Source of the DNA: Flavobacterium sp. I3-2
GTDB lineage: Bacteria; Bacteroidota; Bacteroidia; Flavobacteriales; Flavobacteriaceae
NCBI RefSeq assembly: GCF_013389595.1
Contig: NZ_CP058306.1
Span: forward strand, 3,224,001-3,288,000
DNA length: 64,000 nucleotides
Reading direction: 5' to 3'
Program-made: the position numbers and the translations under genes
In this document: one piece after another, positions 35,794-49,094 of the stretch
How positions within the stretch are numbered: position 1 is the first letter of the stretch
How the letters are laid out: each line of letters starts with the position of its first letter
Notes under the pieces: model-generated
What the model was told of the DNA's origin: nothing
The model's database searches: none
The model's input: the letters and a program-made list of their open reading frames with translations, nothing else

Positions 35794-36870
35794 TTAATTC
35801 AATTTTATTTTAGGATCTAAATAAGCATAAATCATATCAACTAAAATTGTAATTACTACAAATGTTGTTGCTATGACTAAAACAGATCCCATAATTATAG
35901 GCAAATCTAAATTGTTTAATGCATCTACAATTTCTTTACCAAGTCCGTTCCATCCGAATATAAATTCGACAAAAACCGAACCTGCTAACATAGATGCAAA
36001 CCAACCAGAAACAGCTGTAACAACTGGATTTAATGCATTTTTTAATGCGTGTTTATAAACAATTTTTGCAGTTGATAATCCTTTTGCTTTTGCTGTTCTG
36101 ATGTAATCTTGACTTAAAACTTCAAGTAGCGAATTTCGCATTAATTGGATGACAACACCAAGCGGACGAATTCCTAAAACTACCGCTGGTAAAATACTGT
36201 TTTTTAATTGTAAATGAACGCCTTCGCCAAAATCATCTACCTCGTATAAACTTCCGGTCATGTTTAATCCGGTATATTCATTTAACACAAAACCAAAAAT
36301 CCAGGCAGCAAGAATCGCACAAAAGAAAGACGGTAAACTCATCCCGAATGTACTGATGATTGCAATGGTTTTATCAAAAGCGGTGTCTTTATATAAAGCT
36401 GACAAAATTCCTAAAAAGATTCCTAAGAAAATTGCAATTCCAACTGCAAAAAACGCTAAGAAAATCGTATTTGGTAATGTTTCTGCAATAATGTCCGTTA
36501 CCTTTTTACCATTTTTTTGAAAACTTTCTCTTAAGTAAGGAGCTTTTAAAACGACATCTGTATTTTTTGTACTAAATAATTTAAACCCATTGTATTTGTC
36601 TTGGTCAAAGAACGTATAATTATCTGTGTTTTTTGAATGAAACGACAAAACAGATAAATCATTTAAATAATTTACATATTGTTGTGAAATCGGTAAATCA
36701 AAACCGTATTTCTTTTTGATGATTGCTAATTGTTCAGAGTTTTCATTTTGGTCTAACATCATTCGAGCTGGATCTCCAGGTAAAATATTAAACAAAAAGA
36801 AAACAACCGTGATAACACCCCAAAGTGTTAATATTCCATAGCCTAATTTATTTAAAAAATAACGTAACAA
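35794..36870 (-). CDS. ABC transporter permease, DppB/OppB family
   Basis: 358 aa inner-membrane permease with the N-terminal GILTLWGVITVVFFLFNILPGDPARMM signature of DppB/OppB proteins, six transmembrane helices and the EAA loop (about 250-268: DYIRTAKAKGLSTAKIVYKHALKNALNPVV). A hydrophilic insertion of about 60 residues (roughly 70-130) lies between the first and second helices, as is usual in the flavobacterial version. No OppC, ATPase or binding protein is adjacent, so it works with parts encoded elsewhere or has become a solo gene. 1 nt from each neighbour. Confidence 0.9.
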   Translation of the reverse strand: MLRYFLNKLGYGILTLWGVITVVFFLFNILPGDPARMMLDQNENSEQLAIIKKKYGFDLPISQQYVNYLNDLSVLSFHSKNTDNYTFFDQDKYNGFKLFSTKNTDVVLKAPYLRESFQKNGKKVTDIIAETLPNTIFLAFFAVGIAIFLGIFLGILSALYKDTAFDKTIAIISTFGMSLPSFFCAILAAWIFGFVLNEYTGLNMTGSLYEVDDFGEGVHLQLKNSILPAVVLGIRPLGVVIQLMRNSLLEVLSQDYIRTAKAKGLSTAKIVYKHALKNALNPVVTAVSGWFASMLAGSVFVEFIFGWNGLGKEIVDALNNLDLPIIMGSVLVIATTFVVITILVDMIYAYLDPKIKLN

Positions 36871-36871
36871 A

Positions 36872-37975
36872 TTATTTTAAAGTTAATTTAGCAGCATCTT
36901 GCCAATGTAATTTTTCTACAATTGTACCGTATTCAACCACAACTAAACTCGGATTTGCTCTTTCAATTGTTTTTAAAGTTGTAGCATCACAGAAATAGAA
37001 ATCAAAATTGAAATTAAATTCAGAATTATATTTAGATATTGTTTCGATATTTGAAGCTGTCAACGCAATCACCTGATAACCTTTATCTTCTGCTTGTTTT
37101 GAAATTTCGTTTAATTTACCTAATCCTTCTTCTGAAGCTAAATCAAGATTATAACTCACAAACATTAAAAGTTTTGGTTCTTCTAAAAATTGGTCCAAAT
37201 AATTTTCACCATCTTTTTCAATAAAAAAATCATGAATTGGCGGTTCGTAACCTTTTACTAAAAGTTTTTCTTCACGCGAAACGAATTCTGCATTTGCAGG
37301 TAAATTAGCTAATTCATCCATTTTGAAATCTTTTTCAACTCCATCAACTTTGTATTTAAAGATGATGTCGTATTCAGATTTTGGAGCTCCATCTGGAATT
37401 TCCATTCCCTTACGGATATTTGTTCCTACTTTATAAGCTCTGAAATCAATCACAGGCAAATGATTTAAAACGTGAAATCCTAAATATCCACATAAAATTA
37501 ATGTGATTATTGAAACTGCGTAATTTAAACCTGAAGATTTGAATATTGGTAAAATATATTTTTGTCCAGCAAATAAGATTAAAATCAAAACTAAAAGAAC
37601 CACATCTTTTCCGAATGATTGCCAAGGTGTTAGTTTTAAAGCATCACCAAAACATCCGCAATCTGTAACTTTATTGAAATAAGCCGAATAGAAAGTTAAG
37701 AATGTAAAGAATAAAATCATTAAAAATAAACTCCATAAAGTAAATTTCTTTTTAAATCCAATTAGTAATAAAACGCCAAGAACAACTTCAACTATGACAA
37801 CAAAAACAGCAATACTTAAAGCTAAAGGTTGTAAAAATGGAAGATTGAAAACAGCTTCAGAAAAATATTCGTCTAGTTTAAATGAAAATCCAACGGGATC
37901 ATTTAGTTTAATTAATCCAGAAATAATGAATAAAAATCCTACAAAAAATCGGGCGATTTGAGTTATAAATTTCAT
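36872..37975 (-). CDS. DoxX-like membrane protein with thioredoxin-like C-terminus (BT_3928 type)
   Basis: 367 aa. The first half has four transmembrane helices of the DoxX/MauE kind (ARFFVGFLFIISGLIKLNDPVGFSFKLDEYF, then FYSAYFNKVTDCGCFGDALKLTPW with a DCGCFGD motif at about 105-111). A further helix near 150 leads to an extracytoplasmic domain resembling a thioredoxin fold without a CxxC (LLMFVSYNLDLASEEGLGKLNEISKQAEDKGYQVIALTAS). Likely tied to redox or methylamine-type electron chemistry in the envelope; exact role unknown. In operon with the TlpA-like lipoprotein. Confidence 0.85.
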   Translation of the reverse strand: MKFITQIARFFVGFLFIISGLIKLNDPVGFSFKLDEYFSEAVFNLPFLQPLALSIAVFVVIVEVVLGVLLLIGFKKKFTLWSLFLMILFFTFLTFYSAYFNKVTDCGCFGDALKLTPWQSFGKDVVLLVLILILFAGQKYILPIFKSSGLNYAVSIITLILCGYLGFHVLNHLPVIDFRAYKVGTNIRKGMEIPDGAPKSEYDIIFKYKVDGVEKDFKMDELANLPANAEFVSREEKLLVKGYEPPIHDFFIEKDGENYLDQFLEEPKLLMFVSYNLDLASEEGLGKLNEISKQAEDKGYQVIALTASNIETISKYNSEFNFNFDFYFCDATTLKTIERANPSLVVVEYGTIVEKLHWQDAAKLTLK

Positions 37976-37990
37976 GTTATATTTTTTTAA

Positions 37991-38563
37991 TTATTTAGTT
38001 TCAGCTAATCCCATTAAAATCAATGAGAAAACTGCATAGTTAATCATATCTTGATAATTGGCATCAATACCTTCAGAAACCAAAGTTTTTCCTTGGTTAT
38101 CTTCAATTTGTTTAACACGTAAAAGTTTTTGTAAAATAATATCTGTACAAGAACTCACACGCATTTCGCGCCAAGCTTCACCGTAATCGTGGTTTTTATT
38201 CAACATCAAATTTTTAGTTTCTTCGATGTGTTTGTCATAAAGCGCAATAGCTTCTTCGTTAGTTAAGTCGGGTTTTGTTGTAATTCCTTTCTCGATTTGA
38301 ATTAAAGCCATCACACAATAATTGATGATTCCAATAAATTCAGAAGTTTCGTCTTCATCTACTTTTCTAACATCGTTTTCTTGTAAACTGCGAATGCGTT
38401 GTGCTTTAATAAAAATTTGATCGGTTAAAGAAGGCAATCTTAATATACGCCAAGCACATCCGTAATCTTGTAATTTTTTCGAATATAAATTTTTACAAAT
38501 GGTGATGATGTTATTATATTGTTCTGAAGTATTATTCATTGTGAATTCTATATTTTTTATCAA
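37991..38563 (-). CDS. DUF1599 protein
   Basis: 190 aa containing two related halves of the DUF1599 (nucleotide-modification-associated) type, each with a DYG motif: KKLQDYGCAWRILRLPS near 29-45 and NKNHDYGEAWREMRVSS near 119-135. The internal duplication is visible by eye. Soluble, no signal. First gene of the tpiA operon, 15 bp upstream of the DoxX gene, divergent from folP. The biochemical role in cellular genomes is not known. Confidence 0.88.
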   Translation of the reverse strand: MIKNIEFTMNNTSEQYNNIITICKNLYSKKLQDYGCAWRILRLPSLTDQIFIKAQRIRSLQENDVRKVDEDETSEFIGIINYCVMALIQIEKGITTKPDLTNEEAIALYDKHIEETKNLMLNKNHDYGEAWREMRVSSCTDIILQKLLRVKQIEDNQGKTLVSEGIDANYQDMINYAVFSLILMGLAETK

Positions 38564-38644
38564 AAATAAGAATAAACTTCAGCTTTTAAAATTTTATACA
38601 TCGTAATTTGATTAAATTTGTTTGATATTTATATAAAATAAAAA

Positions 38645-39475
38645 ATGACGATAAATTGTAATGGGAAATTGATGGATTTTGAAGTTCCGAAAGTAATGGG
38701 AATTTTAAATTGCACGCCAAATTCATTTTACGATGGTGGAAAATATACATCCGAAAATGCTTTTTTAAAACAAACCGAAAAAATGTTAATTGAAGGTGCA
38801 TCGATAATTGATATTGGAGCTTATTCAACACAACCTAACGCACCTTTTGTTTCTGAAAGTGAAGAACTTCAACGTATTTTACCGGTTGTAAATGCTTTAG
38901 CTAAAGAATTTCCTGAAGCAATTTTGTCTATTGATACTTTTCGTGCTGAAGTTGCCAAACAATGTATTGAAGTTGGTGCTTCAATAATAAACGATGTTTC
39001 TGCCGGATTTTTAGATGAAAAAATGTTTGAAGTGGTGGGTAATTATAAAGCACCATATATAATGATGCACATGAAAGGTACGCCACAGAATATGCAAAAA
39101 TTTACCGATTATGAGGATGTCATGAAAGATATGATGTTTTATTTTTCGGAACGAATTGCCACAGCTAAAAAACACGGAATTGTAGATGTAATTCTCGACC
39201 CAGGTTTTGGATTTTCTAAAACATTAAATCAGAATTATGAAGTTTTAAATAAGCTAGAATTATTAAACGAATTTAATTTACCAGTACTTTCTGCTTTGTC
39301 ACGAAAATCAATGTTGTATAAATTTTTAAACACAGAACCAAATGAAGTTTTAAACGGAACTACTGTTTTACATACTATTTCGTTAATGAAAGGAGCAAAG
39401 TTATTACGTGCTCATGATGTAAAAGAAGCAGTTGAATGTGTGAAATTAATCCAAAAAATGTATGAAAATAATTAA
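38645..39475 (+). CDS. folP: Dihydropteroate synthase
   Basis: 276 aa TIM-barrel enzyme that joins p-aminobenzoate to the pterin pyrophosphate in folate synthesis. Signatures: MGILNCTPNSFYDGGKY (about 18-34), DIGAYSTQPNA with its conserved Arg/Asn neighbourhood, SIDTFRAEVA, INDVSAG, and the DPGFGFSKT pterin-binding loop (about 180-188). Cytoplasmic. The lipoprotein gene downstream starts within its last 14 bases. Confidence 0.97.
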   Translation: MTINCNGKLMDFEVPKVMGILNCTPNSFYDGGKYTSENAFLKQTEKMLIEGASIIDIGAYSTQPNAPFVSESEELQRILPVVNALAKEFPEAILSIDTFRAEVAKQCIEVGASIINDVSAGFLDEKMFEVVGNYKAPYIMMHMKGTPQNMQKFTDYEDVMKDMMFYFSERIATAKKHGIVDVILDPGFGFSKTLNQNYEVLNKLELLNEFNLPVLSALSRKSMLYKFLNTEPNEVLNGTTVLHTISLMKGAKLLRAHDVKEAVECVKLIQKMYENN

Positions 39476-39965
39476 GATTTTACCAATCCTATCGACTTTG
39501 TTTTTAGCTTCATGTGCTAAAAATGAAATGAAAATTTCTCGAGCTGATAAATCAATTGTTACAGAATTAATTGAACAATCTCCAATTTACATTACCAAAA
39601 CTAACGAAGGAAATTTCGATATTAATGAAAATAATCGAATAGGAAATACGGATTGGGTTTTTAGTATCGAAAGTAGTTTACCTATCTCAAAATTAGTCCC
39701 TGATGTTCAACGTTTGATAAATAAAAAATATGCTGAGGGCATGCATCCTGATTCAAAAAAGGTGTATTTTTTATATATGGATTCAATTAAAAATCAAATT
39801 GCTTATTTACCTATTAATCAATTAGAATTTGTATCTGAAAAATCTGAAGGACAAAAAGTTTTGAGTTTTGATAAAAATATTTCAACAGAAAAATTTATTC
39901 AAGAAATGGTTAATGTAACAACCAACGATAGTTTGCAACCAAAAATTCAAGTTTATTTTTACTGA
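39462..39965 (+). CDS. Hypothetical lipoprotein
   Basis: 167 aa with a lipoprotein signal (ILPILSTLFLASCAKNE, Cys 18), overlapping folP by 14 bp and so translationally coupled. The mature part (ISRADKSIVTELIEQSPIYI, NTDWVFSIESSLPISKLVPDVQRLINKKY, KKVYFLYMDS) looks like a compact alpha/beta domain; not assigned to a family. The stop codon overlaps the end of the convergent rlmH gene by a few bases. Confidence 0.8.
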   Translation: MKIIKILPILSTLFLASCAKNEMKISRADKSIVTELIEQSPIYITKTNEGNFDINENNRIGNTDWVFSIESSLPISKLVPDVQRLINKKYAEGMHPDSKKVYFLYMDSIKNQIAYLPINQLEFVSEKSEGQKVLSFDKNISTEKFIQEMVNVTTNDSLQPKIQVYFY

Positions 39966-40432
39966 TGATGATATGGTTCGTTTTTAAGAATCGTAAAACT
40001 TCTATAAATTTGTTCAATTACAAATAAGCGCACCATTTGGTGAGAGAAAGTCATAGCGGAAAGAGAAATCTTTCCGTTTGCTTTTTTATAAACTTCATCA
40101 GAAAATCCGTAAGGACCGCCAATAACGAAAACCAATGTTTTAATGCCAGCATTCATTTTCTTTTGTAATTCTTCAGAAAAACCTACGCTCGAAAAAGTTT
40201 TACCATTTTCATCTAACAAAATCATATGGTCGGAACTTCCAATTTTAGATAAAATCAGTTCGCCTTCTTTTTCTTTTTGTTGCTTTTCAGATAAGTTTTT
40301 TACGTTTTTAATATCGGCAATTACCTCCAAATCAAACTTAACATAAAACGACAATCGCTTTGTATAATCGTCAATTAAAGTTTGTAAAGCTTTATTGTCT
40401 GTTTTTCCGATGGCAAGTAATTTTATGTTCAT
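39959..40432 (-). CDS. rlmH: 23S rRNA (pseudouridine1915-N3)-methyltransferase RlmH
   Basis: 157 aa from ATG 40432, the canonical start MNIKLLAIGKT; an in-frame ATG at 40477 would add 15 atypical residues. The SPOUT fold signatures are seen: MILLDENGKTFSSVGFSE, the knotted VFVIGGPYGFSDEVYKKA and the C-terminal KISLSAMTFSHQMVRLFVIEQIYRSFTILKNEPYHHQ ending in the usual HH. Methylates the pseudouridine at 1915 in 23S rRNA. 37 bp downstream of csaA on the same strand. Confidence 0.97.
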   Translation of the reverse strand: MNIKLLAIGKTDNKALQTLIDDYTKRLSFYVKFDLEVIADIKNVKNLSEKQQKEKEGELILSKIGSSDHMILLDENGKTFSSVGFSEELQKKMNAGIKTLVFVIGGPYGFSDEVYKKANGKISLSAMTFSHQMVRLFVIEQIYRSFTILKNEPYHHQ

Positions 40433-40469
40433 GCTGATTTTTTTTGCAAAAGTAAAATTTATTCGTCTT

Positions 40470-40808
40470 TTATCCAATTTTAAATCCGTTCGTCACTTTG
40501 CGTTCAGGTTCGATTAAAACAACATCTTTATCATTTCCAACAACACCTAATACCAAACATTGACTCATAAAATTAGCAATTTGTTTTTCAGGAAAATTAA
40601 CAACAGCCATCACTTGTTTAAAAAGGATTTCGGTTTGCGAATAGCATTTCGTAATTTGTGCAGATGATTTTAAAATACCAAGTTCGCCAAAATCAATCCA
40701 AAGTTGATAAGCCGGATTTTTAGCTTTTTCAAAAATTTTCACTTCGATAATTGTGCCAACACGAATATCGATTTTCTCGAAATCGTTCCAAGATATTATT
40801 TCTTTCAT
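40470..40808 (-). CDS. csaA: tRNA-binding protein, CsaA type
   Basis: 112 aa made of one EMAP/Trbp111 OB-fold: DFEKIDIRVGTIIEVKIFEKAKNPAYQLWIDFGELGILKSSAQIT at about 9-53 and KQVMAVVNFPEKQIANFMSQCLVLG later, ending in ...ERKVTNGFKIG. Such dimeric proteins bind tRNA and have been linked to protein export in Bacillus. Upstream of rlmH; divergent from the DJ-1 gene. Confidence 0.93.
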   Translation of the reverse strand: MKEIISWNDFEKIDIRVGTIIEVKIFEKAKNPAYQLWIDFGELGILKSSAQITKCYSQTEILFKQVMAVVNFPEKQIANFMSQCLVLGVVGNDKDVVLIEPERKVTNGFKIG

Positions 40809-40854
40809 TTTAATATTTTTTATAAATTTAAGAAACTTAAAAATAAAAGAAATT

Positions 40855-41430
40855 ATGGCAAAAAAAATATTAATGTTAGCAGGTGATTTTGTTGAAGATT
40901 ACGAAATCATGGTTCCATATCAAGCCTTATTATCAGTAGGATGTGAAGTTGATGTAGTTTGTCCAGGAAAGAAGAAAGGAGAAATCATTGCTACAGCTAT
41001 TCATGATTTTGTCGGTTTTCAAACTTATGCCGAACTTAGAGGACATAATTTTCAGTTAAATCAAACATTCGAAAATATCAATCTTGAAGATTATGCGGGT
41101 TTATATATTTGTGGCGGTCGAGCACCAGAATACATTCGTTTGAACGAAGGGGTACTTTTGGCTACAAAATATTTTTTCGATAAAAATTTACCTGTTGCAG
41201 CAATTTGTCACGGAATTCAAGTTTTAACTGCTGCCGAAGTTTTAAAAGGAAGAACTTTAACCGCATATCCGGCTGTTGGTCCTGATATTAAATTAGCAGG
41301 TGGTGTTTATAAAGAAATCGCTGCCGACGCTGCTATTACCGACGGAAATTTAACGACTTCACCAGCTTGGCCAGGTCATCCAGCAATTTTAAAAGAGTTT
41401 TACAAACTTTTAAATATAAAGATAGGTTAG
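40855..41430 (+). CDS. DJ-1/PfpI family protein
   Basis: 191 aa from ATG 40855 (MAKKILMLAGDFVEDYEIMVPYQAL); longer in-frame starts upstream overlap the divergent csaA gene and are not supported. Class I glutamine-amidotransferase-like fold with the nucleophile elbow AAICHGIQVL (Cys about 115) and the upstream GGRAPEY loop (about 85). Family members act as glyoxalases/deglycases, chaperones or proteases; function here cannot be narrowed. Cytoplasmic. Confidence 0.92.
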   Translation: MAKKILMLAGDFVEDYEIMVPYQALLSVGCEVDVVCPGKKKGEIIATAIHDFVGFQTYAELRGHNFQLNQTFENINLEDYAGLYICGGRAPEYIRLNEGVLLATKYFFDKNLPVAAICHGIQVLTAAEVLKGRTLTAYPAVGPDIKLAGGVYKEIAADAAITDGNLTTSPAWPGHPAILKEFYKLLNIKIG

Positions 41431-41435
41431 TTTTT

Positions 41436-41535
41436 GGACGTTCCCTCGCTCATTATATATGTAGGAGTAAAATTGTATTAAGTAGAAACCGCTCGGTCGG
41501 GCTTTCCGCTATATCTTTTTTTATTCTTTGTAAGT
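41436..41535. repeat. Left half of an interrupted conserved-looking noncoding element
   Basis: Contains GGACGTTCCCTCGCTC (41436-41451) and CCGCTCGGTCGGGC then TTTCCGC and a run of seven or more T (to about 41523). I recall this GTTCCCTCG / GGTCGGGC / CCCTAACGC series as a noncoding sequence repeated in many flavobacterial genomes. The other half lies at 42798-42832, on the far side of the IS110 element. CGCTATATCTTTTTTT on this side can pair with AAAAAAAGGATACCGC on the other. Confidence 0.45.
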
Positions 41536-41542
41536 GTCATTC

Positions 41543-41550
41543 TATGTTTG
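41543..41550 (+). promoter_or_regulatory. -7 element completed at the IS110 circle junction
   Basis: TATGTTTG (41543-41550) is a perfect TAnnTTTG. Its first T belongs to the core CT; the rest is the left tip of the element. In the integrated form no -33 sequence is correctly placed. In a circle, the right end would be joined upstream and TTG at 42721-42723 would lie 20 bp before the -7 element, completing a promoter that reads into the candidate bridge RNA. Confidence 0.6.
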
Positions 41551-41554
41551 CAAA

Positions 41555-41740
41555 TAGTTATTTTTAAATATTGTAAATCGAGAAAGAAAAGAAAGGGTAA
41601 AGAAGTAAGACTATTGATTGTCATTTGTCATATAAGACCGTTCAGAATGTTAGTTCCTTTACCCTTACTACAAAATTTGGACAGAACATTAGGTTATAAA
41701 GCCTGTATTTAGAATAGGTAAATTAGTGTAGTAATTTCTT
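41555..41740 (+). ncRNA. Candidate IS110 bridge RNA
   Basis: Two internal-loop hairpins can be drawn in the left end. Target loop: stem AAGGGTAAAG (41593-41602) with CTTTACCCTT (41657-41666), holding TGTCATT (41619-41625, identical to the left target flank 41535-41541) on its 5' side and GTTCAGAATG (41640-41649, complement of CATTCTGAAC spanning the right junction) on its 3' side, with a small GTC/GAC apical stem between them. Donor loop: stem TTACTAC (41665-41671) with GTAGTAA (41728-41734), plus AATTT (41674-41678) with AAATT (41720-41724), holding ACAGAACATT (41681-41690, identical to the right end 42733-42742) and ATAG (41714-41717, complement of CTAT at the left tip). The 5' and 3' ends are estimates. 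Confidence 0.65.
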
Positions 41741-41761
41741 TTCTGATAAAACATTTTATGT

Positions 41762-42715
41762 ATGTGTAAAATTATTGGAATTGACATTAGCAAACAAACT
41801 TTTGATGTAAGTTTTAAGCGAAAAGAACGATGGGATTATTTTGTTTTTCCTAATGAAGAAAAAGGATTTAAACAGTTGTTAAATTTGATAGAACAAGTAG
41901 ATTGGGTTGTTATGGAGGCTTCGGGCAGTTATTATTTCCCATTAGCTACTTTTTTAAGCAGTCGGAATATTAAAGTTTGTGTAGAAAATCCTTTGGTGAT
42001 CAAGCGTTTTAGTCAGACAATGCTTTATCGTGCTAAAACGGACAAAAAAGACGCAAGAACAATAGCCGAATATGGTGAAAAGTATGACTTGAAACAGTGG
42101 GAACAAGAAAGTGAAAATTGTACGAAGCTTCGACATTTATACACACGAGTTGAACTGTTAAATAAACAAATCCAACAAAACAAACGCCAATTAGAAGCCT
42201 TTGAAAGCAGTGGTTCGTTAGACAAATTTTTAGAAAAGACTATAAAAAAAGATCTTTCCAATCTTGAAAAAACCAAACATAAAATCGAAGTAGAAATGGA
42301 ACGATTAGCAAAACAGCAATACGGTCAGACTATCGAGAATATTGAGAGTATTCCAGGCATAGGTAGAAAAACCGCAATGATGCTATCTTTGATAACCGAT
42401 AACTTCAAGAAGTTTGAGAATTATAAACAGCTCATCGCTTATGTAGGGTTTAGTCCCAGAATATATCAAAGTGGAACCAGTGTAAAGGGAAAAGGACATA
42501 TTTGTAAAATGGGTAAAGCACAAATCAGAAAGTTGCTTTATATGTGCAGTTGGTCAGCTAAACATTGTAACAAAACTTGTAAAGAAATGTACGACAGATT
42601 GAAAAGCCTTGGAAAACCAGAAAGAGTAATTAAAATAGCTATTGCAAACAAACTATTAAAACAAGCGTTTGCAATAGCTAAAGCGAATGGTAAATATCAA
42701 GAAAATTATTGTTAA
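41762..42715 (+). CDS. IS110-family transposase (DEDD/serine recombinase)
   Basis: 317 aa with both domains of IS110 transposases. N-terminal RuvC-like DEDD domain (about 3-150): D in IGIDISKQTFDVSF, E in VVMEASGSYYF (about 44), and the DD pair in AKTDKKDARTIAEYG (about 93-99). Coiled-coil linker about 120-185. C-terminal Transposase_20 domain (about 190-300): IESIPGIGRKTAMMLSLI, LIAYVGFSPRIYQSG then KMGKAQIRKLLYMCSWSA, with the likely nucleophilic serine in the QSGTSVKGKGH segment. The gene is intact and is preceded by 218 bp of noncoding sequence from which the guide RNA would be made. Confidence 0.95.
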   Translation: MCKIIGIDISKQTFDVSFKRKERWDYFVFPNEEKGFKQLLNLIEQVDWVVMEASGSYYFPLATFLSSRNIKVCVENPLVIKRFSQTMLYRAKTDKKDARTIAEYGEKYDLKQWEQESENCTKLRHLYTRVELLNKQIQQNKRQLEAFESSGSLDKFLEKTIKKDLSNLEKTKHKIEVEMERLAKQQYGQTIENIESIPGIGRKTAMMLSLITDNFKKFENYKQLIAYVGFSPRIYQSGTSVKGKGHICKMGKAQIRKLLYMCSWSAKHCNKTCKEMYDRLKSLGKPERVIKIAIANKLLKQAFAIAKANGKYQENYC

Positions 42716-42736
42716 AATAGTTGCATAGAAACACAG

Positions 42737-42764
42737 AACATTCTGAACTTGTTTCAGAATCTCC
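42737..42764. repeat. REP-like hairpin re-formed at the right IS110 junction
   Basis: ATTCTGAA (42740-42747) pairs with TTCAGAAT (42753-42760) around CTTGT. The left five bases come from the element's right end and the rest from the target, so the hairpin survives the insertion. Similar CATTCTGAACTTGTTTCAG sequences are, from memory, frequent in flavobacterial intergenic DNA. Confidence 0.55.
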
Positions 42765-42797
42765 AATTTTTAAAGTTTATTCATAATTAATATAAAA

Positions 42798-42832
42798 CAA
42801 AAAAAAGGATACCGCTCCAATCCCTAACGCAA
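42798..42832. repeat. Right half of the interrupted noncoding element
   Basis: Contains AAAAAAAGGATACCGC then TCCAATCCCTAACGC (to 42829). It is separated from its left half at 41436-41535 by the IS110 insertion. Both halves carry ACCGCTC. Confidence 0.45.
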
Positions 42833-42882
42833 CCGAAGTCTTAAAGTTCAAAGGCATTATAACATAAACTATGTAAACAGAA

Positions 42883-42915
42883 AAAATAATGGGGATTTTA
42901 AAACCCCATTATTTT
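42883..42915. terminator. Hairpin at the left end of IS256-like copy 2
   Basis: AAAATAATGGGG (42883-42894) pairs with CCCCATTATTTT (42904-42915), followed by T residues. It would stop outside transcription from entering the transposase. Confidence 0.8.
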
Positions 42916-42946
42916 TTTGTTTAAACTTAAATATTTATATGGTCTT

Positions 42947-44009
42947 ATGAGAAAAGAAGATTTATTATCGGATGAATTTTTAAAGCAATTCAAAACAGGC
43001 GAAGACCTAAATGGTTTCCTTGCTCAATTACAAAAACGTGGTTTAGAAGCGATTTTAAACGGTGAACTAGATGCACATCTAGAATATGATAAACATGAGA
43101 AATCAAGCGTATCAAATTCTAGAAACGGATATTCTAACAAAAAGTAAAAACTTCTTTTGGCGAATCTCAAATTCAAATTCCTAGAGATAGAGAAGCTACT
43201 TTCAACCCAATGATTGTTCCTAAAAGACAAAACATAGTTGACGGATTAGAAAATGTAATTGTATCTTTATATGCTAAAGGAATGAGTGTTAGTGATATTG
43301 AAGAACAAATCAGAGAAGTGTATAATTTTGATATTTCTATCTCAACTATATCCCGAATAACAGAGTCGGTCTCAAATGATATTATAGCTTGGCAAAATCG
43401 ACCATTAGATCCCGTTTATTCGATTGTTTGGATGGATGGTATCGTTTTTAAAGTTCGTGAATGTTCAAAGGTTATGAATAAGACAATTTATCTTACTGTA
43501 GGATTGTACAAAGATGGAAAAAAATAGGTTTTGAGTATGTGGTTCATCAAATCAGAAATTCAGCACGTTATGTGGTATGGAAAGATAAGAAAGAATTTTC
43601 AAAAGATATGAAACAAATTTATGATGCTCCAACCAAACAAGCTGCTAAAAGTGCTTTAGAAGATTTTGCTAATAAATGGAATCATAAATATCTATATGCG
43701 ATAAAATCTTGGGGAGAAAACTGGGAAGAACTTACGGTATTCTTTGATTTTCCTATAGAAATCAGAAGGATAATTTACACCACTAATCTAATCGAAAATC
43801 TAAATGATAAGATCAGAAAACACACCAAAAATAAATTATCATTCCCTACGGATGATACTGTTTTAAAATCCGTATATTTGGGATTAAGAGAAGCTACCAA
43901 AAAATGGTCAATGCCAATCCAAAATTGGGGATTAATCCTCAATCAGTTCTTAACTATATCTAAAAAAAAGGGTTCAACTTTAATTAAAAGTCAAACCCCA
44001 TTATTTTAA
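42947..44009 (+). pseudogene. IS256-family transposase, frameshifted and internally deleted
   Basis: Starts MRKEDLLSDEFLKQFKTGEDLNGF with the family's GLEAILNGELDAHLEYDKHEK block. A missing base in the A-run at 43139-43143 breaks the frame at 43145 (TAA), and translation sense resumes in the next frame with TSFGESQIQIPRDREATFNPMIVPKRQ. At 43525 the text jumps from LYKDGKK directly to VHQIRNSARYVVW: the segment that normally holds GMWLGKNES and the TDNLxGF catalytic region, roughly 60 residues, is gone, and the frame changes again. The C-terminus (IYTTNLIENLNDKIRKHTKNK, KKWSMPIQNW) is well preserved. Not functional. Confidence 0.88.
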
Positions 44010-44091
44010 AACTTACACACCTTTTAAGATAGTGTCTTTTATTGCCAAAAAATTCCCTAAAAACAAATGTCAATAGGGATTTTTTATGATT

Positions 44092-45264
44092 TTATTTTTG
44101 CCATTCTTTGGTTTCATCGAACACATGTTGAAGTATCGCTTGCTCCATTTCATCAAAATCTACATGACGACGTGCCATAACGATTTTAGCAGTTTCAAAA
44201 GCTTTTTTAGGCAAATATGCTTGCGTGCCTTGAGCTCCTCCCCAAGTAAAATTAGGAATATAATTTCTTGGAAAACCTGCCCCAAAAACATTTGCTGCAA
44301 CTCCAACAACCGTCCCCGTATTAAACATGGTATTGATTCCACATTTAGCATGATCTCCCATCATCAATCCACAAAATTGCAAGCCTGTATTTTCAAAACG
44401 TTCTGTTTCGTAATTCCAAAGTTTAACACTTTCGTAGTTATTTTTAAGGTTTGAATTATTTGAATCTGCGCCAATATTACACCATTCTCCTAAAACTGCG
44501 TTTCCTAAAAATCCGTCATGCCCTTTGTTTGAATACGCAAACATAACAGAATTATTCACTTCACCACCTACTCTACAATGCGGTCCAACAGTTGTAGCTC
44601 CATAAATTTTAGTCGCTAATTTAACCTGAGCTTCTTCGCAAAGCGCAAAAGGACCACGAATTACAGAACCTTCCATAATTTCTGCATTTCTACCAATATA
44701 AATTGGACCTGTAGTTGCATTTAACGTACAGAAATTTAATACAGCTCCTTCTTCTATAAAAATATGTTCAGTTCCTAAAACATTTACAGTCGCAGGAATT
44801 GGTTCAGATTCACGATCTGCTGTTAACAGATCAAAATCTGCACGAATAGCAGCATCGTTTTTCTGGAAAATATCCCAAGTATGTTCAACTGTTAAAACAT
44901 CTCCTTCAAAATCAATTAATTCGTACGATTCAAAATCGATCTCATCTTGAGAATTAGTCGTAAAAAAAGCAACCATTTCATCTTCATAAACAATCGCTTG
45001 ATTTTCTTGAAGATTTTCAATCAATTCAACCAATTCAGGATTTGGTAAAAAAGATGCATTAATCATCACATTTTCTTCCAATTCAATCATTGGATATTTT
45101 TCTGAAAGATATTCTTCTGTAATTGTAGTTGTAGTTGTGCCTAGAAATTTCTCCCATTTTTCACGAATCGTCAAAATTCCAATTCGAATATCAGCAACTG
45201 GACGAGTAAAAGTAAAAGGTAAAAGATTATTCCTAACCGCTCCGTCGTATAAAATATAATTCAT
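44092..45264 (-). CDS. GlmU-like sugar nucleotidyltransferase family protein
   Basis: 390 aa. The N-terminal part (ILYDGAVRNNLLPFTFTRPVADIRIGILTIREKWEKFLG) is the shortened nucleotidyltransferase-like domain found in the Bacteroidota GlmU-family proteins, and the C-terminal part (about 190-370) is a left-handed beta-helix of hexapeptide repeats (IYIGRNAEIMEGSVIRGPFALCEEAQVKLATKIYGATTVGPHCRVGG). Probably acts on a sugar-1-phosphate in envelope precursor synthesis, but it lacks the complete GxGxxMR loop of true GlmU. The IS256-like remnant ends 56 bp downstream of its stop, so the IS did not damage it. Confidence 0.85.
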   Translation of the reverse strand: MNYILYDGAVRNNLLPFTFTRPVADIRIGILTIREKWEKFLGTTTTTITEEYLSEKYPMIELEENVMINASFLPNPELVELIENLQENQAIVYEDEMVAFFTTNSQDEIDFESYELIDFEGDVLTVEHTWDIFQKNDAAIRADFDLLTADRESEPIPATVNVLGTEHIFIEEGAVLNFCTLNATTGPIYIGRNAEIMEGSVIRGPFALCEEAQVKLATKIYGATTVGPHCRVGGEVNNSVMFAYSNKGHDGFLGNAVLGEWCNIGADSNNSNLKNNYESVKLWNYETERFENTGLQFCGLMMGDHAKCGINTMFNTGTVVGVAANVFGAGFPRNYIPNFTWGGAQGTQAYLPKKAFETAKIVMARRHVDFDEMEQAILQHVFDETKEWQK

Positions 45265-45317
45265 GTCTATGTTTTTTTCAAATGTACAAAATAGTGGTGT
45301 AAAAATACGAAAACAAA

Positions 45318-45346
45318 AAAAGCCATTCTAAAAAAGAATGGCTTTT
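45318..45346 (-). terminator. Terminator after rpmE2
   Basis: AAAAGCCATTCT (45318-45329) pairs with AGAATGGCTTTT (45335-45346), a 12-bp stem with a 5-nt loop. Confidence 0.9.
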
Positions 45347-45365
45347 ATATGTAAATTTCAGTTTA

Positions 45366-45617
45366 TTATTTACTGAATTTAGCGTATTTAGTTTTGAATT
45401 TATCAATACGTCCTGCAGTATCGATAAGTTTAGATTTACCTGTATAGAATGGGTGAGAAGTTCTAGAAATCTCCATTTTGAATACTGGGTACTCTACTCC
45501 ATCAACTTCAATAGTTTCTTTAGTTTCAACTGTTGATTTTGTGATGAATACGTCTTCGTTAGACATATCTTTAAACGCTACTAATCTGTAATTTTCTGGG
45601 TGAATACCTTTTTTCAT
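45366..45617 (-). CDS. rpmE2: 50S ribosomal protein L31, type B
   Basis: 83 aa, starting MKKGIHPENYRLVAFKDMSNEDVF and containing SRTSHPFYTGKSKLIDTAGRIDKFKTKYAK. It lacks the CxxC zinc ligands and has the inserted segment typical of type B (zinc-independent) L31. In Bacteroidota this is usually the sole L31. Monocistronic with its own terminator. Confidence 0.98.
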   Translation of the reverse strand: MKKGIHPENYRLVAFKDMSNEDVFITKSTVETKETIEVDGVEYPVFKMEISRTSHPFYTGKSKLIDTAGRIDKFKTKYAKFSK

Positions 45618-45815
45618 GATAAACCTTGTTTTTAATTAATGGATAAAAGTTACTTTGAAGCTTTACGAATAAAGGTGTAAATAACCGTTACCTTTTTGTT
45701 ATAAATTATTTTTGTTCTATTTCAGATTGCAAATTTACAATTTAATCTCAAAACACAAACATTTATACCACTTTTTTTACAAAGAAATATAACATTTCTG
45801 TAACTATCATTTTAC

Positions 45816-45823
45816 TATATTTG
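45816..45823 (+). promoter_or_regulatory. -7 promoter element
   Basis: TATATTTG, a perfect TAnnTTTG, 24 bp before the ATG at 45848; it overlaps an in-frame TTG at 45821 that might otherwise be taken as the start. Confidence 0.65.
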
Positions 45824-45847
45824 TATTCTTATATATTTATCAAAAAC

Positions 45848-46393
45848 ATGAATCAAACAATTAAAAATATTGGAATCAAATTCGGATTATTTCTAGCTTT
45901 AATCCTAAGTTTAATCAACGTTGGAATTTATTTTTACGATTACAACATTATGGCATCAACAGCAAACGGATTCATTTTATTGTTTGTTATTATCCTTTTC
46001 GGATTGATTTCTACTGCTTTGTCTAAATACAAAATTGGTGGTTTCATTACATTTAAAGAAGCTTTTACTCCCTATATTTTAACGATTTCTATCGGAATTA
46101 TTATTTCTACAATTGTACAATTTTTAATTTACAGTGTAATTGATCCTGAAACAGGGGAATTATTAAAAGAAACTTTAAGAAATATGTATGTTGAGCAAAT
46201 CATGAAATCTAACGGAACTCAAGAAGAAATTGCCGCTTCAATTGCAGAAGTTCAAAAAACAAATCCATTAGCTTTTGGTGGACTAATTTCATCTTCGGTA
46301 ATTCGAATTGCAATGCTTTCTGTTGCAGGAATTTTAATTGCTTTAATTTTTAGAAACCGTTCTGAATTTTCAAACACGCCTCAAACGAAATAA
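45848..46393 (+). CDS. DUF4199 membrane protein
   Basis: 181 aa from ATG 45848; the earlier TTG at 45821 falls within the promoter. Four transmembrane helices in the arrangement of DUF4199 (KFGLFLALILSLINVGIYFY, GFILLFVIILFGLISTAL, GGFITFKEAFTPYILTISIGIIISTIVQF, then a charged loop with NMYVEQIMKSNGTQEEIAASIAEVQ, and a last helix). Family function unknown; in Bacteroidota it is usually next to a GT2 glycosyltransferase, as here (7 bp). Confidence 0.9.
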   Translation: MNQTIKNIGIKFGLFLALILSLINVGIYFYDYNIMASTANGFILLFVIILFGLISTALSKYKIGGFITFKEAFTPYILTISIGIIISTIVQFLIYSVIDPETGELLKETLRNMYVEQIMKSNGTQEEIAASIAEVQKTNPLAFGGLISSSVIRIAMLSVAGILIALIFRNRSEFSNTPQTK

Positions 46394-46400
46394 TTTACGA

Positions 46401-47363
46401 ATGAATTTATCCATCATAATTCCATTATTAAATGAAGAAGAATCGTTACCCGAATTACACGATTGGATTGCTCGCGTAATGCAAACAAACAATTTCAGTT
46501 ACGAAATTCTATTTATTGATGATGGTAGTACTGATAATTCTTGGAATGTTATTTCTGAAATTTCAAAAAAAGATGAGAATGTAAAAGGCATTCGTTTTCA
46601 GAAAAATTATGGAAAATCTCAAGCTTTAAATATCGGATTTAAAAAAGCTCAAGGAGATGTAATCATTACCATGGATGCCGATTTACAAGACAGTCCAGAT
46701 GAAATTCCAGAATTATACCGCATGATTGTAAATGATAATTACGATTTAGTTTCGGGATGGAAAAAGAAACGTTTTGATTCGGTTTTATCAAAAAACTTAC
46801 CTTCAAAACTATTTAACTGGGCAGCTTGTAAAACTTCTGATTTAAAACTTCACGATTTCAATTGCGGATTAAAAGCTTACAAAAACGAAGTCGTGAAAAA
46901 CATCAACGTTTATGGCGAAATGCACCGTTATATTCCGGTACTTGCTAAAAACGAAGGTTTTAATAAAATCACCGAAAAAGTTGTAAAACACCAAGCTAGA
47001 AAATACGGAACGTCAAAATTTGGAATGAGTCGTTTTATCAATGGATTTTTAGATTTAATCACCATTTGGTTTTTATCTAAATTCGGAAAACGTCCAATGC
47101 ACTTATTCGGAGCTTTAGGCGTTTTAATGTTCTTTATTGGATTTTGCGCCACGTTGTTTATCGGAATTTACAAAATATACAAATTAACCGTTGGAGAACC
47201 GGCAATTTTAATCACAAGTAATCCTTGGTTTTATATTGCATTAACAACGATGATTTTAGGAACACAGCTTTTCTTAGCTGGTTTTTTAGGAGAAATAATC
47301 TTAAAAACAAATAAGAAAGAAAAAAGATACAAAGTTTCAGAAACACTTAAAATTGAAAAATAA
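46401..47363 (+). CDS. Family 2 glycosyltransferase, GtrB/DPM-like
   Basis: 320 aa. GT-A domain (about 1-225): LSIIIPLLNEEESLPELHDWI, LFIDDGSTDNSW, the metal-binding TMDADLQDSPDEIPEL (about 93-108) and the HRYIPVLA segment. Two C-terminal transmembrane helices (about 235-305: LFGALGVLMFFIGFCATLFIG and FYIALTTMILGTQLFLAGFLGEII). Such enzymes make polyprenyl-phosphate sugars for modification of surface glycans. Second gene of the 45.8-50.9 kb operon. Confidence 0.93.
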   Translation: MNLSIIIPLLNEEESLPELHDWIARVMQTNNFSYEILFIDDGSTDNSWNVISEISKKDENVKGIRFQKNYGKSQALNIGFKKAQGDVIITMDADLQDSPDEIPELYRMIVNDNYDLVSGWKKKRFDSVLSKNLPSKLFNWAACKTSDLKLHDFNCGLKAYKNEVVKNINVYGEMHRYIPVLAKNEGFNKITEKVVKHQARKYGTSKFGMSRFINGFLDLITIWFLSKFGKRPMHLFGALGVLMFFIGFCATLFIGIYKIYKLTVGEPAILITSNPWFYIALTTMILGTQLFLAGFLGEIILKTNKKEKRYKVSETLKIEK

Positions 47364-47369
47364 ACACCA

Positions 47370-49094
47370 ATGGAAATCAAATCAAACATATTAGAAAAAG
47401 TAACACAATGGCTTTCGCCTGTTTTCGATTCTGAAACCACAGAGAAAGTAAAAGATTTAATGACTTCATCTCCTGCTGAATTAGAAGATGCGTTTTATAA
47501 AAATTTAGAATTTGGAACGGGCGGAATGCGTGGAATCATGGGCGTTGGTACCAACCGAATCAACAAATATACATTAGGAAAAAATACACAAGGATTATCG
47601 CAATACTTAAAGCAAAGTTTTCAAAACCAAGAAATCAAAGTTGCTATTGCTTACGATTGTCGTCATAACAGTGATACGTTAGCTAAAGTGGTTGCCGATG
47701 TTTTTTCGGCAAACGGAATTAAAGTATTCTTGTTCTCGGAATTACGTCCTACACCCGAATTGTCTTTTGCAGTAAAATATTTAAACTGTCAAGCAGGAAT
47801 TGTTTTAACAGCTTCACACAATCCACCAGAATATAACGGCTACAAGGTTTATTGGGAAGATGGCGGACAATTGGTTCCACCACAAGACCAAGAAATTATC
47901 GATTTAATCGAAAGCTTAAAATATGAAGATATTAAATTCGAAGCAAACGAATCGTTAATTGAATACATCAATACAGAAGTTGATGAAGCTTTTGCCATTT
48001 CTGCAATCGAAAATGCAAGTTTCAATATTCCAGCAGAAGCGAAAGAAAATCTAAAAATTGTTTTCACTTCGTTACACGGAACTTCAATTAAAGCTATTCC
48101 GAATGTTTTAGCTAAAGCAGGTTATACCGATGTAAATATCGTTACTGAACAAGCAGAACCAAATGGAGATTTCCCAACGGTAAAATCACCAAACCCAGAA
48201 GAGCCAGAAGCTTTAACCATGGCTTTGAAATTAGCTGATGAAACAAATGCAGATATCGTAATCGGAACAGACCCAGATTCGGACCGTTTAGGAGTTGCTG
48301 TACGTGACAACGATGGCAAAATGGTTTTATTAAACGGAAACCAAACCATGGTAATCATGACCGCTTTCTTATTAGAACAATGGAAACGCAACGATAAAAT
48401 CACAGGTAAAGAATTCATCGGCTCAACGATTGTTTCTACTCCAATGATGTTCAATTTAGCAGATGCTTACGGTGTTGAATGTAAAGTCGGTTTAACCGGA
48501 TTTAAATGGATTGCCAAAATGATTAAAGATTTCCCTGAATTAAAATTCATCGGAGGTGGTGAAGAAAGCTTCGGATTCATGGTTGGCGATGCTGTTCGTG
48601 ATAAAGACGCCGTTGCTTCTACCCTATTGGTTTGCGAAATTGCTGCAATTGCAAAAGCATCAGGAAGTAGTTTATATAAAGAGTTAGAAAACTTATATGT
48701 TGATTTTGGTTACTTTAAAGAGCATTTGATTTCAATCACTAAAAAAGGAATTGAAGGCGCAAACGAAATCAAACAAATCATGACGAATTTACGTGAGAAT
48801 CCGGTTTCTGAATTGAACGGTGAACGCGTAGTTTTCATTGAAGATTATCAAAGTTCAAAAGCTTTAAATATGGATACGAAAGAATTAGAAGATTTAAAAC
48901 TTCCAAAATCAAACGTATTGATTTATTACTTAGCTGATGGTAGTAAAATTTGTGCTCGCCCAAGTGGAACTGAGCCTAAAATAAAATTCTATATGAGCGC
49001 AAATATGCCAATAGAAAATGTTGAAGAAATCAAAGATGCAGATGCTTATTTATCTGACAAAATTGAAAACATAATCAAAGATTTGAATTTATAA
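47370..49094 (+). CDS. Phosphoglucomutase/phosphomannomutase (PgcA-like)
   Basis: 574 aa alpha-D-phosphohexomutase. Active-site phosphoserine in TASHNPPEYNGYKVYWEDGGQL (about 148-152), metal loop GTDPDSDRLG (about 301-310), sugar-binding GGGEESFGFMVGD (about 393-405) and phosphate-binding RPSGTEPKIKFY (about 533). Length matches PgcA rather than the 450-aa ManB class. Interconverts glucose-6-P and glucose-1-P for sugar-nucleotide supply, fitting its operon mates: a glycosyltransferase (6 bp upstream) and an ABC exporter (5 bp downstream). Confidence 0.95.
   Translation: MEIKSNILEKVTQWLSPVFDSETTEKVKDLMTSSPAELEDAFYKNLEFGTGGMRGIMGVGTNRINKYTLGKNTQGLSQYLKQSFQNQEIKVAIAYDCRHNSDTLAKVVADVFSANGIKVFLFSELRPTPELSFAVKYLNCQAGIVLTASHNPPEYNGYKVYWEDGGQLVPPQDQEIIDLIESLKYEDIKFEANESLIEYINTEVDEAFAISAIENASFNIPAEAKENLKIVFTSLHGTSIKAIPNVLAKAGYTDVNIVTEQAEPNGDFPTVKSPNPEEPEALTMALKLADETNADIVIGTDPDSDRLGVAVRDNDGKMVLLNGNQTMVIMTAFLLEQWKRNDKITGKEFIGSTIVSTPMMFNLADAYGVECKVGLTGFKWIAKMIKDFPELKFIGGGEESFGFMVGDAVRDKDAVASTLLVCEIAAIAKASGSSLYKELENLYVDFGYFKEHLISITKKGIEGANEIKQIMTNLRENPVSELNGERVVFIEDYQSSKALNMDTKELEDLKLPKSNVLIYYLADGSKICARPSGTEPKIKFYMSANMPIENVEEIKDADAYLSDKIENIIKDLNL

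Follow-up and report, generated by a model that had tools for sequence, protein, structure and literature searches.

A probable bridge-RNA-guided IS110-group insertion sequence with an AT core in Flavobacterium sp. I3-2

The stretch of Flavobacterium sp. I3-2 DNA analysed here (the window; 64,000 nucleotides) carries an IS110-group insertion sequence of 1201 bp (41541..42741), which is, with high probability, guided by a bridge RNA and has AT as its core. The initial annotation, made from the letters alone, had proposed an element of the IS110 group whose left end encodes a bridge RNA, and this reading is borne out by the protein domains, by guide covariation, by compensatory changes in the stems and by a covariance-model match. 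Comparison with relatives points to a well-supported lineage of a known kind, set apart by its natural AT core. We infer transcription, a circular form, strand exchange at AT and RNA-guided target choice from these comparisons.

The element, its recombinase and the relatives compared

The ends of the element were derived from the AT core, with one core copy counted inside; they are based on six identical copies in the genome, on comparison with an empty site and on core homology with relatives. All features described below lie on the forward strand. The recombinase gene (41762..42715) encodes a protein of 317 aa, which matches PF01548 (DEDD RuvC-like; 92.6 bits, cut-off 29), PF02371 (Tnp; 77.6 bits, cut-off 21.3) and NF033542 (203.5, cut-off 140). 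Residues 4-309 are similar to the recombinases of IS621 (PDB 8wt6, E 3.9e-30) and ISCro4 (PDB 9t56, E 4.7e-30), and D8, E52, D94, D97 and S237 align with D11, E60, D102, D105 and S241 of IS621. In the 20 AT-core elements introduced below these residues are conserved in 19, 20, 18, 20 and 20 rows, respectively; D8 is missing or replaced, or D94 is replaced, in two rows.

By coordinates the left end measures 221 bp and the right end 26 bp, the long-left and short-right arrangement of the IS110 group. Placement in the IS1111 group, whose bridge RNA lies in the right end, does not fit an element in which only 26 bp follow the stop codon and the RNA is in the left end. A near inverted repeat noticed by eye inside both ends (CTATGTTT, 41542-41549, and AAACACAG, 42729-42736; 7/8 letters) resembles the short subterminal repeats described for IS110. 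A folP-like gene neighbours the element, and a PF00872 (Mutator-type) transposase split into two frames lies just 3′ of it (43210-44009).

Relatives were collected by protein searches of overlapping genome sets, in which only the first few candidates per genome were scored. Matches were found in 89 of 398 genomes of the genus (E 1e-3), in 41 of 397 of the family and 9 of 395 of the phylum (both at 1e-60), and, at 1e-72, in 6 of 331 genomes of the order, 7 of 231 of the order of genome G399 and 2 of 224 of the class of genome G504. A search of genome contigs for relatives by name, covering close relatives only, gave one match. Plasmid DNA gave no match to the element, and in 2832 plasmid records all proteins were below 60% identity to the recombinase. 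From 17 sources we chose by hand 20 elements, the window element included, which had the donor motif in common and both ends readable; one of them (L055) comes from an Ignavibacteriota record. Two incomplete elements (L030, L172) and near-copies, for example of those in G399, G729, G504 and G1488, were left out.

Copies in the genome and their target sites

The genome holds six full copies with identical proteins, identical left ends and intact frames; in the other five copies identity to the window copy is unbroken over 41535-42746. All six read TGTCAT^TCTGA[A/G]C at the element (^ marks the element) and sit in REP-like repeats, the kind of target that had been proposed from the window copy, so that none of the six was found at an unrelated site. 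The left target TGTCAT (41535..41540) ends in the core AT (41539-41540) and stands directly left of every copy. On the right, the core AT and the right target form ATTCTGAAC (42740..42748), which is ATTCTGAGC in the other five copies. In these five the flank goes on as GAGC and a GTGAAA..AGTCGAAGAAT-type repeat; in the window copy it goes on as GAAC and a small hairpin.

The exact sequence TGTCATTCTGA occurs at 8 further genome sites, all unoccupied, and 6 of 14 such sites thus hold a copy. With up to one mismatch it has 100 matches in the genome, versus 18 for the reversed pattern. The joined flanks of one copy (L014) can be aligned through the join with a paralogous site that holds no copy (L051), at 87.6% identity and with a single gap over 169 columns; the alignments to L053 (10 gaps) and L054 (14 gaps) cross the join as well. 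The empty-site comparison did not map the ends elsewhere.

At one copy (L015, G000:C1:1507000-1510500; also L007) a piece of the left end of the element is duplicated on the left side: 82 bp ending in the left target guide precede the full copy, and the outer flank again reads TGTCATTCT. The tandem repeat measures about 84 bp and runs from the left tip up to the element's left target guide. Since the guide by its nature repeats the left target, every copy has a short direct repeat at which slippage could occur. Slippage between TGTCATT of the left target and the same letters in the guide would explain L015 more simply, as a tandem duplication of about 84 bp, and self-insertion into the guide of another copy was set aside for this reason.

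A promoter motif across the joined ends

Excision would join the right end to the left end at the AT core, giving the predicted circle junction ACAGAACATTCTATG. The joined ends would complete a promoter motif, TTG-N20-TATGTTTG, driving the left-end RNA and the recombinase gene. Its putative -7 box TATGTTTG (TAnnTTTG) lies at the left tip (41543..41550) and its -33-like GTTG near the right end (42720..42723). In the joined circle GTTG would precede the -7 box by 20 nt. The motif is of the Bacteroidetes type: the -7/-33 consensus TAnnTTTG/TTTG is given in PMC2483708, and the -7 box is described for a flavobacterium (PMC9723704).

When the ends are joined, TAnnTTTG stands two letters past the core in 16 of the 20 elements, and these 16 also have NTTG at a distance of exactly 20 letters upstream; the elements share descent and do not count as independent cases. 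The full TTTG is present in 13, the window element having GTTG, and TAnnTTTG is missing in 4/20. IS621 is reported to complete a promoter at its circle junction (PMC11208160); judged by motif, a promoter may likewise form at the junction in this lineage, which suggests a circle-junction promoter re-made in Bacteroidetes style.

In the inserted state TTTG was found at 18-23 letters in 2/20 left flanks (those of L024 and L174 are not long enough for a decision), and the left flank of the window copy has no TTTG at 18-23 nt. That inserted copies do not contain the upstream half of the motif would suit the idea that the window copy and its sisters, guided as described, are immobile relics. We consider this unlikely, because six identical copies with intact frames imply recent movement.

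Guides and core dinucleotide

Four guide strings had been read from the left end in the initial annotation, and all are present: TGTCATT (41619-41625) equals the left target flank (41535-41541), 42739-42748 has its reverse complement in GTTCAGAATG (41640-41649), ACAGAACATT (41681-41690) equals 42733-42742, and ATAG (41714-41717) is complementary to CTAT (41542-41545). The reading was correct for the left target, right target and left donor guides. The placement of the third string just before a CT core was an interpretation and is corrected to AT, and ATAG gave way as the right donor guide to TAGAAT, which follows the donor in relatives.

Trimmed to the matches around AT, the predicted guides of the window element are: TGTCAT for the left target (41619..41624), GTTCAGAAT, the complement of ATTCTGAAC, for the right target (41640..41648), ACAGAACAT for the left donor (41681..41689), identical to the right end of the element (42733..42741), and TAGAAT for the right donor (41710..41715), the complement of ATTCTA as at 41539-41544. 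Counted outward from the core, the matches to left target, right target, left donor and right donor are 6, 9, 9 and 6 letters long. None of 20000 dinucleotide-shuffled left ends had matches as long as these at all four guides, and none equalled the summed length. The single lengths were reached by 3.5% (left target), 0.2% (right target), 0.07% (left donor) and 21% (right donor) of the shuffles; at 21% the right donor match does not by itself attain significance, and its assignment draws on the relatives.

All four guides contain the dinucleotide AT, which they have in common and which is shared by both junctions (41539-41540 and 42740-42741). The copies in this genome share CATTCT at both junctions, and the core is ambiguous inside it, so that in the window element alone CT cannot be told from AT and relatives have to be consulted. 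In G399 the left junction is CGTCAT|CGTAAG and the right one ACAGTTCAT|TGCGAGG; in G729 they are GTCAT|CCTATG and ACAGTTCAT|TTCGAC or |TCCGAG; in G504, GTCAT|CATATATT and ACAGTTCAT|CCCGG. The letters past CAT differ between the left and right junctions of these relatives, which places the exchange in or next to CAT. From these junctions and the guide overlaps we infer that the natural core is AT, with exchange at AT, and not the CT first proposed.

An IS621-type CT core in the same bridge RNA system, with exchange at 41542-41543 and 42743-42744 and ATAG as the right donor guide, would agree with the presence of CT at both junctions of the window copies and with the published core of IS621. It appears very improbable: neither left guide runs into CT (the RNA reads TGTCATT-TG and ACAGAACATT-AG), and the right junctions of G729, G504 and G399 have no CT after CAT (TTCGA or TCCGA, CCCGG and TGCGA, respectively). 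One shared CT cannot give both these and the corresponding left junctions (CCTATG, CATATA and CGTAAG), and the right donor guides that track the donor are TAGAAT/TAGGAT/TACGAT against ATTCTA/ATCCTA/ATCGTA. With AT taken as the core of the lineage, one element (L171, G1422) departs from it, having GT at its left junction and AT at its right. GT is also found in its left target guide, and its reading frame contains a stop; L171 may be a core change caught midway, or may be decayed.

Covariation of guides with their sites

Among the relatives target guides change with target sites, a behaviour that had been named as a check of the first reading: own sites are matched better than permuted ones. 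The right target guide matches on average 5.75/7 letters at its own site versus 3.65 at the others, the left target guide 4.35/5 versus 3.46, and the right donor guide 3.85/4 versus 3.22 (0/20000 permutations each); for the left donor guide the means are 5.50/6 versus 5.23 (41/20000). These permutations ignore the relatedness of the 20 elements. With one row per distinct guide, the counts per 20000 permutations were 0 for the right target, 22 for the left target, 1660 for the left donor (4 distinct guides) and 339 for the right donor (5 distinct guides). Covariation thus appears strong for the target guides and weaker for the donor guides, of which few variants exist.

The right target guide (AT and the next 5 letters) is exact in 17/20 elements and occurs as 9 different words; L020, L022 and L081 have one mismatch each, which in L081 could be bridged by a G-U pair. 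For the left target guide, 10/20 elements match exactly at the 5 letters that precede AT; in L022 the left target reads TGTAAT, and the left target guide of L170 has CCT in place of the expected CAT. In 17/20 elements the left donor guide ACAGNNCAT matches exactly and tracks the right end, with AA in the window element, AT in L081 and TT in the remaining 15; a match is lacking in L083 and L091, and the final letter deviates in L171. For the right donor guide (AT and 4 letters) the match is exact in 16/20; L083, L084 and L093 match 5 letters, and L171 differs in the core. RNAalifold, run without guide labels, paired columns 1-5 (the element tip) with columns 212-216 (the right donor guide), with covariation; the column pair 4-213 is CG in 13 rows, GC in 5 and AU in 2.

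Two elements of one genome (G504), L084 and L093, differ in 17 of 1236 aligned columns. Their guide changes are an inserted G in the left target guide and a C-to-T change in the right target guide, and these track the targets (CGTCAT to CGGTCAT; ATCCCGGA to ATCCCGAA); two more differences fall in the loop, immediately ahead of the left guide. That the left-end RNA is a regulatory leader or antisense-type RNA of the transposase, with the protein picking the target and the matches being coincidental or by-products, has precedent in the small RNAs that regulate the transposase of the IS110 relative ISPpu9 (PMC8450116) and in sites that are short repeats, in principle readable by a protein, but is extremely improbable, since guide letters change with target letters even between these two near-identical elements, which a leader would not do.

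Predicted structure of the bridge RNA

A covariance model built without the window element has a single match in the 64 kb up to E 10, at 41563..41755 (100 bits, E 3.2e-17), which we take as the putative bridge RNA region. In the predicted fold a terminal stem (41585..41594 with 41735..41744) surrounds two arms, the target loop being followed by the donor loop. The target loop has an outer stem of GGGTAAAG (41595..41602) and CTTTACCC (41657..41664) and an apical hairpin (GTC/GAC, 41627..41638), in which relatives have double changes at 3/3 pairs. The outer stem of the donor loop is formed by 41664..41679, pairing within 41718..41735, and its apical hairpin (AGGT/GCCT) lies at 41691..41704.

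The stems change compensatorily. Own strands pair with lower energies than strands swapped between elements, the values being -20.5 vs -13.5 kcal/mol for the target stem, -11.8 vs -5.8 for the donor stem and -12.7 vs -9.9 for the terminal stem (0/20000 permutations for each). The terminal stem is the least uniform of the three and is weakest in L171. In a first alignment (A1) MAFFT had, judged by eye, shifted the target-loop outer stem by one column; hence the swapped duplexes and a second alignment (A2) of 16 rows, without the window element, L091, L176 and L171. In A2 89.7% of cells pair, versus 37-52% when slid by 1-3 columns, and double changes occur at 15/20 model pairs, counts favoured by the derivation of the structure from the same alignment; further pair types were not above shuffles (480/500). 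The covariance model, which was built from A2, was also run on 12 of the 21 sister loci in the tree described below and matches the left end of each (E 0.0013 or better), with 5 further weak matches (E 0.77 or above).

The single-sequence fold of the window RNA, also with a terminal stem around two arms, is weakly better than shuffles (z -1.91; 10/200 shuffles fold equally well). The two internal-loop hairpins noted at the outset are supported by the compensatory changes in relatives and not by this fold. In 36000-48000, Rfam had no family at gathering score; 5 sub-threshold matches were listed, none over the RNA of the element.

Predicted mechanism and comparison with known systems

In the proposed mechanism, TGTCAT of loop 1 would pair with the bottom strand of the target and GTTCAGAAT with the top strand, and ACAGAACAT and TAGAAT of loop 2 would serve the two halves of the donor junction. 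The DEDD recombinase would bring both DNAs together on the RNA and exchange strands at AT, which, by analogy with IS621, would place the element in REP-like repeats.

IS621 of E. coli is likewise an IS110-group element with a left-end bridge RNA in which the target loop precedes the donor loop. As described in PMC11208160 and PMC11208158, it also has left guides equal to the top strand, right guides complementary to it and the core inside all four guides, as well as a REP-repeat target and a recombinase with DEDD and serine residues. The two differ in the core, CT in IS621 and AT in the window lineage, and in the right target pairing, 7-9 letters in 17/20 elements of the lineage against 4-7 reported for the IS621 set. 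Unlike IS621, the lineage has the Bacteroidetes-type promoter motif in 16/20 elements, and the window RNA is predicted to fold with a terminal stem around both arms. GT, AT and TT cores of IS621 were reportedly made by engineering, and non-CT cores worked better once pairing with the right target had been extended from 4 bp to 7 bp (PMC11208160). The IS621 residues described at the core, A61, G63 and N84 (PMC11208158), are kept in 20, 19 and 20 of the 20 AT-core rows, so that those residues alone do not explain the core change.

The seekRNA described for IS1111/IS110 elements (ISEc21; PMC11187229) is the same mechanism under another name, with one target per element and, in the IS110 type, the RNA upstream of the transposase gene, as here; the main text of that paper contains neither Flavobacter- nor Bacteroid-. 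IS110-family insertion into REP sequences, in other hosts, is described for ISPpu9, ISPpu10 and ISPa11 in PMC1525189, whose text contains no Flavobacter- and has Bacteroid- in the reference list only. By protein only, the nearest plasmid-borne likenesses are IS110 transposases of Adhaeribacter/Hymenobacter plasmids (39-41% identical in the six best rows from 2832 plasmid records), and ISCro4 (PDB 9t56) is likened by its recombinase alone. In the open literature, mostly titles and abstracts, we found no publication naming an AT-core bridge RNA lineage; one may be in print elsewhere.

We think it quite likely that AT-core bridge recombinases with long right target guides exist here as a natural lineage of wide spread. 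If so, the AT core, reached in IS621 by engineering, and a right-target pairing of 7-9 letters would here have come together by evolution, and G504 would hold near-identical elements whose guides have switched between two targets. Bridge recombinases are under development for DNA insertion, inversion and excision, and the preferred CT core limits their sites. The AT lineage, with guides readable from sequence, would offer candidate recombinases for AT-core sites and, with its natural target switches, a data set on the recombinase residues that set core choice.

Recombinase tree and sister elements

A maximum-likelihood tree was built from 48 recombinases, of which 21 sister and 7 outer rows were chosen by us. 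A branch with support of 100/99 separates the 20 AT-core rows from all others. The label CT in the tree stands only for sister elements that are non-AT and has support of 55/9, and the long branches of L083 and L084 meet, which drew a warning from the tool. CTT is common to the junctions of the sister elements, except in L195, and they insert at other sites. In L195 (G1531) a right-end-like AAGCTCAGTTCA stands in the left flank directly before the left tip, as it would at the junction of a circle or of tandem copies.

In a genome of the same genus (G195) sister IS110 elements (L208-L210, G195:C1:100000-159700) lie in an integron-like array, with 5 copies at 111-139 kb and a sixth at 1336 kb. 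The best match to the integron-integrase family, at 146.6-147.4 kb, is below the family cut-off, and 14/14 control genomes also gave sub-cut-off matches. A pattern written after seeing the sites finds 12 attC-like sites, with halves 113-120 letters apart, between 110 and 142 kb, and 0 in one shuffle. The array also contains long runs of frames on one strand.
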